DNA from: Acidobacteriota bacterium
GTDB taxonomy: Bacteria; Acidobacteriota; Vicinamibacteria; Vicinamibacterales; CAVVIG01
DNA length: 45,620 nt
Direction of reading: 5' to 3'
Assembly (NCBI GenBank): GCA_023265175.1
Contig: JAHFUI010000015.1
Location: 1-45,620 of the forward strand
Part shown: in pieces, positions 14,887-37,431 of the stretch
Layout of the letters: the number at the start of each line of letters is the position of its first letter
Numbering within the stretch: position 1 is the first letter of the stretch
Notes under the pieces: generated by a model
Seen by the model: only the letters and a program-made list of their open reading frames with translations
Database searches by the model: none
What the model was told of the DNA's origin: nothing
Translations under genes and position numbers: made by a program

Positions 14887-16518
14887 ATGAGCCGCACGAT
14901 CCGCGTGCACGATCCGCGAGGCTTCCCACCCGAGGTCATCGGGAAGCAGCTGGCGCCGCGGCTGGAGAACCTCGAAGGCAAGACGATCTATCTCGTCGAT
15001 TGCCTGTTCGACAACTCCGACGTGTTCGTCGACCAGTTGCGGCAATGGTTCGGCGAGCATCTGCCGGGCACAGACGTTCGCATGGTGCGCGCGAGGGAAA
15101 GCTGGGTCGACGATCCCGATCTGCGCGCGCGCATCGAGGCCGACGGCGACGGGGCCATACTCGGTGTAGGGCTTTGAAGCACGTGCAGCCCAACGGTCGT
15201 TGGGCTCGCGGTGGCGCTCGAGACGGCCGGCGTGCCGACCGTCGCCGTGCATGCCCACGTGTTCGCGCGTCTCGCGCGTTCCGTGGCTACGGCCAACGGC
15301 ATGCCGACAACGCGGCAGGCGTTCGTTCCGCAGCCCGTCGTCGGCCGCACGGCCGCCGAGCTCCGGGCGTACATCGAGGGCACGGATCCGATCAATAGGT
15401 GTGCGTTCATCGAATCCGTGATCGGCGGGCTCACGCGCCCGCTCGACGGGCAGGATCTGGCGGGCCTGTCGTACACCCGCTCGACGCCCCGGCTGCTCGA
15501 AGCCGACACTGAAGACAATCTGCACAGGCGGTTCAGCGAGAACCGCTGGACAGACTTCGCGCCCGTCGTGCTGCCGACCGAGGCGCGCGTCGCCGCGATG
15601 CTGGCGGGCACGCGCCACGCCGCCGACGAGGTGGTCGGGCGCCTGCGTCCGACGGCCTATCGCGAGTTCTGGGAGTTCACGGTCGAGAAGGTCGCGGTCA
15701 ACGCCGTCATGGCGGGCGCGAGCCCCGCGTACCTGCCCGTCATCCTCGCGATGGCCGCAAGCGGCGTCTCGGGTCGCTCGAGCTCCACGACGTCGCAGGC
15801 GACCGTCGCGCTCGTCAACGGTCCGATCCGCGACGAGATCGGCATGAACTACGGGATCGGGGCGCTCGGTCCGTACAGCCACGCCAACGCGACGATCGGG
15901 CGCGCGTACGGATTGCTCTCGCAGAACCTGCAAGGCGGCTCCGTGCCGCAAGAGACCTACATGGGCTCGCAGGGAAACTTCCTGAGCTACAACGCGACGT
16001 TCGCCGAAAACGAGCAGGCGAGCCCCTGGGAACCGTTCCATGTGCAGCACGGCTTCAAGCCAGAGGACAGCACGGTGAGCCTGTTCCTCGGCGGCTGGTA
16101 CACGGTGTTTGGCGGCGGCCCGCGCGAGACGTGGGAGCAGAAGTTCACGCGCTCTCTGCAGGCCTGCGATCCGTATACTGGCCCGATCATCGCGCTCGAT
16201 CCGCTCGTCGCGCGGGGCTTCGTCGATCGCGGGTTCGAGACGAAGCAGCAGCTCATCGATTGGTGCGTTGAGCACGCGCGCCTGCCGGCCCGGGAATACT
16301 GGGACAACCAGTGGATTCAGACGCTGCACCACCCGCGCGCGCTCGCCGGCGTCGAGCCGTACGCGTCGATGCTGAAAGCGGCGCCCGACGAGCTCATTCG
16401 CATGTTTCGGCCCGAGGATATCCACATCGTCGTCGTTGGCGGGGAAACAGGAGCCATGTGGAAGATGATCGGCGGCGGACCGCGGCTCACCATCGTGTCG
16501 ATCGACAAGTGGCGGTAG
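14887..16518 (+). CDS. selenoprotein 1 (UGSC-like N-domain, U97-S-T-C100), TGA read as selenocysteine
   Basis: A single frame of 544 codons interrupted only by TGA at 15175-15177 (codon 97). Before the TGA: IRVHDPRGFPPEVIGKQLAP, GKTIYLVDCLFDNSDVF, GAILGVGL. After it, in the same frame: STCSPTVVGLAVALETAGVP then TVAVHAHVFARLA. The junction GxGL-U-STC...LE.AG.PTV has the layout of the UGSC (seleno)protein family, with a UxxC redox motif. The C-terminal 430 residues continue open with VEKVAVNAVMAGASPAYLPV, INGPIRDE-type and NATIGRAYGLLSQNL motifs to FRPEDIHIVVVGGETGAMWK. A bacterial SECIS-like hairpin follows the TGA. It is a paralogue of 25254-26882 with Sec at the same codon. Conventional annotation would give a 96-residue and a 435-residue protein. 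It is probably a cytosolic redox enzyme; the reaction is unknown. Confidence 0.9.
15175..15206 (+). promoter_or_regulatory. UGA codon and bacterial SECIS hairpin 1
   Basis: UGA at 15175-15177, then 9 nt, then a perfect 8-bp stem AGCCCAAC/GTTGGGCT (15187-15194, 15199-15206) closing a GGTC loop. The loop begins 17 nt after the UGA and has G as its first base, in line with known bSECIS geometry (roughly 16-37 nt, G in the first two loop positions). It would bind SelB to deliver Sec-tRNA. Confidence 0.85.
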
Positions 16519-25253: not shown

Positions 25254-26882
25254 ATGGTTCAGCGTGTAACGGTGCACGATCCCCGCGGCTATCCGCCGAA
25301 GGTGGTGGGCAAGCGTCTGGCGCCCCGGCCGCCGACGATCGAGGGGAAGACGGTCTACCTGGTCGACTGCCTGTTCGACAACTCGGACGTCTTCACCGAG
25401 CAGCTGCGGCAATGGTTCGTCGAGCACCTGCCCGCGGTGAACATCCGCACGATCCAGCCGAGCAAAACCTGGTCCGACGACGAGGAGATGCGCGCGAGGA
25501 TCGTGTCCGACGGCGACGCGGCCATCCTCGGCGTTGGGCTTTGAAGCACCTGCAGCCCGACGGTCGTCGGGCTCGCGGCGGCACTCGAAGAGAGTGGCAT
25601 ACCCACGGTCGGGGTACACACGCACGTGTTCGCGAGGCTCGTCCGCGCCACCGCGCTCGCCCTTGGCATGCCGCGCATGCGGCAGGCGTACGTGCCGCAG
25701 CCGGTGGTCGACCGCTCGGCCGCCGACCTGCGCGCCTACATTGACGGCAACGATCCGGTGTCGCACCGGCCCTTCATGCAGGAGGTGATCGACGGCCTCA
25801 TTCGTCCGCTCGACGAATCGGACCTGCAGGGGCAGTCGTTCGAGCGCACGACACCGCGGCTGCTGGAGCCCGACAGCGAAGAGCACCTGCATCGGCTGTT
25901 CGAGGAGAACCACTGGACGGACTGTCTGCCGATCACGCTCCCGACCGAGGCACGCGTGAACGCGATGCTCAAGGGCACGAGCCATTCCGCTGACGAGGTC
26001 GTGGGACGACTGCGTCCGGCGGACCTCCGCGAGTTCTGGGAGTTCACGGTCGAGAAGGTGGCCGTGAACGCCGTCATGGCCGGCGCGCGGCCCGGGTACT
26101 TCCCGGTCATTCTCGCGCTCGCGGCGAGCGGCGTCACCGCGCGGTCCAGCAGCACCAATTCCTTCGCGACGATATCGGTCATCAACGGCCCGATTCGCCA
26201 CGAGATCGACATGAGCTCGGGCATCGGCGTCATGGGTCCCTACAACCACGCCAACGCGACGATCGGGCGCGCCTTCGGCCTGCTGTCGCAGAATCTCCAG
26301 GGTGGATCGGTTCCCGGCGAGACGTATATGGGGTCGCTGGGCAACTGGTACGCCTACACAGCGGCGCTACCCGAGGCCGAGGAGCGCAGCCCGTGGCGGC
26401 CGCTGCACGTGCAGCAGGGGTTCAAGCCGACCGACAGCGTCGCCACCGTCTTCTTCGGCGGCTGGTACACGCACGCGGGCTACGGTCCCAGGGCCACGTG
26501 GCAGCAGAAGATGCGACATTGCCTTGCGGCGGTCGAACAGTACAGTCCGCCGCTGCTGGTGATCGATCCGATCGCGGCCCGTGGCTTCTCCGATCTCGGC
26601 TTCGACACCAAGGAGAAGCTGATCGAGTGGTGTGCCGACAACGGGCGCCTGACCGCTCGCGAGTACTGGGACAATCAGTGGATTCAGTATCTGATGCGGC
26701 CTCGCGCGGTCGCCGGCGTCGAACCGTTCGCGTCGCGGCTCAAGGCCGCGCCTGATGAGCTGATTCGAATCTTTGAGCCGGCGGACATCCACATCGTCGT
26801 GGCGGGCGGCGAGACCCAGGGCACCTGGAAGATGATCAGCGGCGCGCTCAGGGGGACGGTGTCCATCGACAAATGGCGGTGA
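25254..26882 (+). CDS. selenoprotein 2 (UGSC-like N-domain, U97-S-T-C100), TGA read as selenocysteine
   Basis: 543 codons in one frame with a single TGA at 25542-25544, codon 97, the same codon number as in the paralogue at 14887. Flanks: GDAAILGVGL before, then STCSPTVVGLAAALEESGIP and TVGVHTHVFARLVRA after. The C-terminal part reads VEKVAVNAVMAGARPGYFPV, INGPIRHEIDMSSGIGVMGP, NHANATIGRAFGLLSQNLQG, PWRPLHVQQGFKPTDSV, ending MISGALRGTVSIDKWR. The two proteins align without gaps around the Sec site and share most motifs. A SECIS-like hairpin follows the TGA. The thioredoxin-reductase-like gene ends 25 bp upstream. It is probably a redox or thiol-dependent enzyme. The last 94 bp are duplicated at 30206. 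Confidence 0.9.
25542..25573 (+). promoter_or_regulatory. UGA codon and bacterial SECIS hairpin 2
   Basis: UGA, 9 nt, then an 8-bp stem AGCCCGAC/GTCGGGCT (25554-25561, 25566-25573) with the same GGTC loop as the first selenoprotein gene. Compared with copy 1, one A-U pair has become G-C by changes on both sides, a compensatory substitution supporting the stem as RNA structure. Confidence 0.85.
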
Positions 26883-37113: not shown

Positions 37114-37431
37114 GTGGTGATGATCGCTCCGAGCCAGTGCCCGGTCTGCCAGGCGCGCTTTCGAAAAGCGCGTGTGTGCTCGCGCTGCGGCGTGGATCTG
37201 GGACCGCTGATGCGTCTGGCCGTCAGCGCCTGGCGGCTGCGTCAAACGGCGCGGCGAGCGCTCGACGCCGGGAGCTTCGAGTGGGCGCTGAACCTGGCTT
37301 CGGAAGCCCAACGCCTGCATCGCACACCGCGTGGAGAATCCTTGAGAAGGTTGAGCGCATGGTTGAACGCTGAATGCTCTGGACCATCTTTCCGGAGCGT
37401 CTGTCAGGAAGACAACCTCGATCAGACCTGA
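37114..37431 (+). CDS. zinc-ribbon protein of the Hsp70 cluster
   Basis: 105 residues from GTG 37114, 6 bp after the Hsp70 stop. CPVCQARFRKARVCSRCGVD shows two CxxC knuckles (rubredoxin-like zinc ribbon), then a helical TPR-like part LRQTARRALDAGSFEWALNL then ASEAQRLHRTPRGESLRRLS. The last 25 residues look unrelated. It overlaps the SNF2 helicase frame if that starts upstream. It presumably belongs to the same operon as the Hsp70 protein. Function unknown. Confidence 0.65.
   Translation: MVMIAPSQCPVCQARFRKARVCSRCGVDLGPLMRLAVSAWRLRQTARRALDAGSFEWALNLASEAQRLHRTPRGESLRRLSAWLNAECSGPSFRSVCQEDNLDQT

Follow-up and report, generated by a model that had tools for sequence, protein, structure and literature searches.

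The UGSC family of bacterial selenoproteins was reported in 2008, together with a fusion of UGSC to a second domain of unknown function, Unknown_1 (PMC2398784). According to the available portions of that report, the family carries a UxxC motif, its selenocysteine (Sec) form is far commoner than its cysteine (Cys) form (255 versus 21 in the GOS table), UGSC is the most frequently used selenoprotein in nonmarine GOS samples, and its fold was guessed to be thioredoxin-like. In metagenomes, UGSC proteins rank, as far as these portions tell, with the most abundant selenoproteins of bacteria, and genes of the Sec form are cut in two by ordinary gene calling. Reviews of 2022 and 2026 and other papers, in their accessible parts, list the family without a function, and the accessible text of the open-access literature searched contains no paper linking UGSC to GrdB/PrdB or to a thioredoxin reductase. 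A second described system is glycine reductase, in which, in the available part of PMC3091704, electrons from NADPH reach GrdB by way of thioredoxin reductase, thioredoxin and GrdA. Here we analyze a fused UGSC protein that is a variant within an already known kind, since the UGSC/Unknown_1 fusion was reported in 2008; the evidence on its partners and on its homology to GrdB/PrdB is new, as far as literature searches go.

The window analyzed here, 45,620 nucleotides in length, is a whole contig (C220) of a 4.92-Mb, 308-contig genome of an Acidobacteriota bacterium. On its forward strand, a single frame runs from the ATG at 14887 to the stop ending at 16518, encoding 543 residues plus the stop, and contains exactly one internal TGA, at codon 97 (15175~15177), within the motif U-S-T-C. 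The preliminary description had given the same frame and TGA and had expected mechanical annotation to yield two ORFs; translation table 11 indeed cuts the frame into 14698~15177 and 15211~16518, the latter coding for 435 residues. The C-terminal part that it put at about 430 residues does exist, but the domain comprises only ~348 residues, starting from residue 196 (15472~16515), because the downstream mechanical ORF also includes the rest of the UGSC domain. As the window is GC-rich and five of its 1159 TGA codons are preceded by no fewer than 96 open codons and followed by no fewer than 400, two of these five belonging to the two UGSC genes, the open frame alone is not decisive. The third-position G+C is 0.82 and 0.88 on the two sides of UGA97, respectively. 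Compared to the related locus L039, the gene differs by 0.147, 0.101 and 0.398 at codon positions 1, 2 and 3, a pattern as under purifying selection. The decisive evidence that 14887~16518 should be read as one gene comes from homology.

Profile search revealed that residues 7~162 of the protein, termed copy 1, match the Pfam family UGSC (PF24696; 14905~15372, forward strand) with 91 bits against a gathering cut-off of 25, which places copy 1 in the family and confirms that the sequences on both sides of the TGA form one UGSC-like domain. The label "UGSC-like" is apt, because the match to the NCBIfam UGSC equivalog NF041046 reaches 65.9 bits, below its curated cut-off of 125. A homologue search using one genome per species yielded 65 related loci, most of which have UGSC fused to the C-terminal domain. 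In 62 of the 65 loci, the residue aligned to position 97 is encoded by an in-frame UGA and UxxC is present, the other three (L086, L096 and L099) being fragments that stop short of the site. The two residues that separate U from C differ among the relatives (USTC, USSC, USAC, UDGC, UDSC, UPGC and UGSC), hence UxxC is the conserved feature, and the U-S-T-C of copy 1 (residues 97~100), which had been singled out as departing from the family's U-G-S-C, does lack the literal letters and is one of several variants of UxxC. For alignments and models, 47 loci were taken, leaving out near-copies and fragments; in the alignment of these fused homologues, Cys-type residues are invariant at positions 97 and 100 and nowhere else. 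Copy 1 shares with the 2008 fusion a UGSC domain with UxxC that is joined to another domain of unknown function, but differs in its U-S-T-C motif and in falling below the NF041046 cut-off, and its C-terminal domain is likened to Unknown_1 by description in the available portions of PMC2398784, not by alignment.

The source genome possesses a full Sec machinery. The tRNA-Sec scores 65.4 bits and is called by ARAGORN as tRNA-SeC with the anticodon tca, and SelB, SelA and SelD score 358.1, 545.1 and 350.2 bits, respectively, all above cut-off. There are five UGSC loci in this genome, each with one TGA. In a draw of genomes from the phylum, 39 of the 40 genomes with a match encode SelA, compared to 213 of the 356 that have none, as raw counts that ignore kinship. 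The SelD gene (L109, G000:C207:40481-41413) likewise contains an in-frame TGA and probably codes for a selenoprotein.

Downstream of the UGA, the transcript of copy 1 can fold into a hairpin of eight pairs (15187~15194 with 15199~15206), whose loop GGTC (15195~15198) follows the UGA by 17 nucleotides. According to the available part of PMC1088965, the bacterial SECIS is a hairpin just after the UGA with a small apical loop containing G, and the hairpin of copy 1 is as expected of such an element. Its folding energy is unremarkable (z of -1.22; 28 of 200 shuffles fold as well), compared to a z of -2.83 for the hairpin of the second UGSC gene. An Rfam scan of the window returned, over the family cut-offs, one tRNA only and no SECIS family. 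Alignment of 23 sequences, out of 55 distinct stretches since the stem of other clades has a bulge and another register, showed that 94.6% of the cells pair. Two pairs are altered on both sides, from G-C to C-G or A-U at columns 18/27 and from C-G to U-A at columns 15/30, counted as sequences and not as events. The four covarying columns are all third codon positions with synonymous changes (Pro CCA/CCG/CCC, Val GTT/GTC/GTG, Ser AGC/AGT and Gly GGG/GGA), which points to selection on the RNA.

Plasmid-borne relatives provide the Cys forms. Among ten of the 24 plasmid records with a match, for which the motif was tallied, the residue at the Sec site is Cys in six (three Neorhizobium, Variovorax with a fused gene, and two haloarchaea with separate genes), Sec in two (Acidovorax and Paracoccus) and neither in two (Sporomusa and Vibrio). 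The fused homologues of the three Neorhizobium plasmids are 52-54% identical to copy 1 and carry Cys in C-S-T-C; their hairpin is lost, the corresponding stretches folding into other pairings at -7.2, -11.5 and -6.1 kcal/mol. One of these genes, from Neorhizobium VafX2 (L117), is broken over two frames, and the two intact rows nest inside Sec rows in the tree, as expected for a change from Sec to Cys. Altogether, the UGA at 15175 is almost certainly read as Sec by the genome's own SelA, SelB, SelD and tRNA-Sec with the aid of the downstream hairpin. The preliminary description, which proposed a selenoprotein gene, is thus supported by the covarying hairpin, the Cys homologues and the Sec machinery. 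It had also asked whether the halves are always separate genes with their own starts in homologues; most of the 65 loci are fused, and in the lineages where the halves are split, they are adjacent and the UGSC gene still contains an in-frame TGA. The fused Cys relative on the Variovorax plasmid is annotated as "hypothetical protein" only. On the Paracoccus ferrooxidans plasmid (L124, 12329~14104), selB lies a few genes from a split pair of UGSC and C-terminal domain.

The predicted structure of copy 1 has a mean pLDDT of 91.8 and a pTM of 0.90. Structural similarity search with the model revealed that residues 27~187 are predicted to adopt a Rossmann/flavodoxin-like fold, for instance resembling 7te2 with a Z-score of 9.6 and an RMSD of 2.5 over 112 aligned residues; in the model, Sec97 sits between the strand 89~95 and the helix 100~113. 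This differs from the thioredoxin-like fold guessed in 2008 (PMC2398784, available portions): the fold matches listed for the UGSC domain are Rossmann/flavodoxin-like, and thioredoxin-fold chains are not among them, an absence that excludes nothing. The C-terminal domain, folded alone, gives a pLDDT of 89.6. It has no match in Pfam or NCBIfam profile searches and contains, in the 47 fused homologues, the invariant polar residues T222, D223, E232, R315, N334, R339, E374, E376 and H385 but no invariant Cys. Candidate folds for this domain were rejected. The PDB searched by sequence gave two nitrogenase chains at an E-value of 1.1, which were not trusted, and a further PDB search gave none; the class I fumarase fold reached a best Foldseek E-value of 7.5e-3 with a probability of 0.38, and the best VIA match had a Z-score of 5.7 and an RMSD of 2.9 over 78 aligned residues, neither of which is a usable match.

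In other genomes of the phylum, a search found UGSC and the C-terminal domain as separate genes (27 genomes). All 24 split genomes that show both parts have the pair within 2.4 kb on one contig, whereas the other three (G237, G368 and G121) show the C-terminal part only; missing parts mean little here, because only the top three candidates were scored per genome. The separate UGSC genes also carry an in-frame TGA. Of ten C-terminal-domain proteins scanned from split systems, seven have an AhpC-TSA/Redoxin domain at their N-terminus, hence both arrangements attach a redox domain to the C-terminal domain, which is UGSC in one and redoxin in the other. In some split systems, a single UGSC gene lies between two genes for the C-terminal domain (L131, 5728~6933 and 12168~13817; L119, 6900~7925 and 8601~9599), and such paired genes may encode a complex of two different C-terminal-domain chains. 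In addition, the fused relatives on the Sporomusa and Vibrio plasmids (L121, 7713~9437; L122, 7971~9656) have lost UxxC and adjoin genes for aconitase X and DUF126, indicating that the fused scaffold can have another role.

A second fused gene, copy 2, lies on the same strand of the window at 25254~26882, with its Sec codon at 25542~25544 and a hairpin at 25554~25573, and encodes a paralogue 67% identical to copy 1; the preliminary description did not list it and proposed no mechanism. It starts 25 nucleotides after the stop codon of a gene (24293~25228, forward strand) for a thioredoxin-reductase (TrxR)-like NAD(P)H flavoprotein, which from its profile match and position is the likely electron donor. 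Similar to thioredoxin-disulfide reductase (TIGR01292), its best match, this protein has FAD/NAD(P)H domains and a CxxC motif (CASC), but it scores about 277 bits (276.8-277.1), under the cut-off of 343.45, whereas a separate thioredoxin reductase elsewhere in the genome scores 394.5 bits, above the cut-off. Among 74 sources (the 65 loci, the window and eight plasmid loci, with stretches of differing length), 18 have, next to the fused or UGSC-type gene and in the same orientation, a gene for a TrxR-like protein, which in most cases lies immediately upstream; none was found in the stretch examined in the other 56, and none stands directly beside copy 1. At one locus (L044), two tandem fused UGSC genes (4547~5857 and 6319~7629) follow one TrxR-like gene. 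Clustering of neighbours around the fused genes found no gene common to most loci. Proteins of presumed SDR type turned up in 16 sources and were considered unspecific as partners, and a presumed selB-like protein recurs in five.

Copy 1 itself falls outside the known families of GrdB and PrdB, the selenoproteins B of glycine, sarcosine, betaine and D-proline reductases. The PrdB model TIGR04483 scores 11.7 bits on it (E of 0.12; cut-off of 300), and PF07355 is absent from its Pfam matches up to an E of 1. The genome itself also encodes a small PrdB/GrdB-like selenoprotein matching PF07355 (L127, G000:C284, 1501~1935, reverse strand), which has the motif U-P-M-C and scores 119 bits on TIGR04483, also below the cut-off. 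Comparison by hhalign of the UGSC profile against a profile of four PrdB/GrdB-like proteins gave an E-value of 3.1e-5 and a probability of 73% over 59 columns, with UxxC aligned on UxxC, whereas the C-terminal domain, as a negative control, gave a probability of 0.1. The real score of 42.5 compares to a best of 22.7 in 100 column shuffles of the four-protein profile and of 26.7 in 100 shuffles that keep CxxC. We take this local match across UxxC and the following stretch as distant homology between the Sec regions of UGSC and GrdB/PrdB, not of family membership, as it covers 59 columns only, between two shallow alignments. The differences from GrdB/PrdB (PF07355, TIGR04483 and TIGR01918) are the missed family cut-offs and the different C-terminal domain fused here; in addition, no pyruvoyl-forming proprotein of the GrdE/PrdA kind was encountered in searches directed at other proteins. 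The TrxR-like neighbour of copy 2 parallels the thioredoxin reductase that heads the glycine reductase chain in the available part of PMC3091704.

On balance, we slightly favor the reading that the fusion protein is a substrate-specific selenol reductase, fed by NADPH via the dedicated TrxR-like flavoprotein, with the C-terminal domain holding the substrate. In the model, Sec97 and Cys100 sit where a helix begins, within a Rossmann-like domain that the profile comparison relates, over a short stretch, to the Sec region of GrdB/PrdB. The C-terminal domain, with its invariant polar residues and no invariant Cys, would form the substrate site. The selenol would attack and reduce the bound substrate, leaving an Se-S bridge between residues 97 and 100, which might be reset by NADPH through the TrxR-like flavoprotein (24293~25228), either directly or through thioredoxin. 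In relatives, the redoxin domain on the C-terminal-domain protein could take over the electron supply, as gene order and domain swaps suggest. The neighbours in the window include genes for a PQQ dehydrogenase, a tannase-type esterase, a carboxylesterase, an alpha/beta hydrolase and a glyoxalase-type protein, which point to the breakdown of small organic compounds, none of them named, and suggest that the substrate of the reductase belongs to such catabolism. Against a reductase stand the 56 of 74 sources and the surroundings of copy 1 in which the TrxR-like gene is missing, the proximity to aconitase X of the relatives that lack UxxC, the lack of a pyruvoyl partner among the proteins encountered, and the shortness and shallowness of the GrdB/PrdB match. 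More tentatively, UGSC, the C-terminal domain and the TrxR-like flavoprotein or redoxin might together constitute a compact reductase system, widespread and belonging to the GrdB/PrdB superfamily, that operates outside the anaerobes that ferment amino acids; soil and groundwater bacteria as well as haloarchaea would use it to reduce a specific organic substrate. Through the domain swaps, the dedicated flavoprotein and the link to GrdB/PrdB, what was a "redox protein of unknown function" becomes accessible to an NADPH assay with two proteins.

The TrxR-like partner and the redoxin fusions also fit with a selenol-dependent peroxidase, or a general thiol-disulfide oxidoreductase for detoxification, whose C-terminal domain only binds a protein partner or stabilizes the enzyme, and the title of a cited reference names a peroxidase activity of GrdB. 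We consider this rather unlikely, as the many polar residues that are invariant in the C-terminal domain are what a substrate site would be expected to retain, and the catabolic surroundings fit metabolism better than stress defence. Less probable still is a non-redox role of Sec97 and Cys100 in metal binding, in nucleophilic catalysis as of a hydrolase or transferase, or in sensing: the loss of UxxC in the Sporomusa and Vibrio members would agree with it, and so would the N-terminal Rossmannoid fold, which is common and also occurs in receiver and B12-binding domains, but all 47 aligned homologues retain UxxC, which is tied to TrxR-like and redoxin partners, and it is Cys, not Ser, that replaces Sec in Neorhizobium, Variovorax and haloarchaea. 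That UGA97 is a true stop, leaving a broken gene or two genes, is hardly credible, for against the two table 11 ORFs and the separate homologous halves of several lineages stand the UGA at the aligned site wherever the 65 loci cover it, the Sec/Cys pairs, the covarying hairpin, the full Sec machinery and the like third-position G+C on both sides.

In a tree built by a quick method with long rows flagged, copies 1 and 2 belong to a clade with a support of 100 (SH-aLRT) that comprises 18 rows, 16 of them Pseudomonadota, and the two copies have different nearest rows. The other fused genes of the genome, on C38 and C11, have other positions in the tree. The contig is consistent with the genome, because the SNF2-type protein encoded at 37374~40292 is 76-80% identical to those of genomes from the same family, and bin contamination was accordingly rejected as its source. 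As the copies nest in a Pseudomonadota clade while the contig belongs to this genome, the fused UGSC genes of the window were likely transferred between phyla, in either direction. The fused paralogues on C38 (L129, 9759~11531, reverse strand) and C11 (L130, near 1622~3445, reverse strand) begin with a hydrophobic, signal-peptide-like leader, which copies 1 and 2 lack. Upstream of each copy lies a gene for a similar-looking exported protein without a Pfam match (11454~12269 and 23380~24189), hinting at a duplicated or jointly acquired block. Between the first of these genes and copy 1, a transporter-like sequence (13398~14095), which we presume to be of the MFS type, is split over two frames and looks broken.
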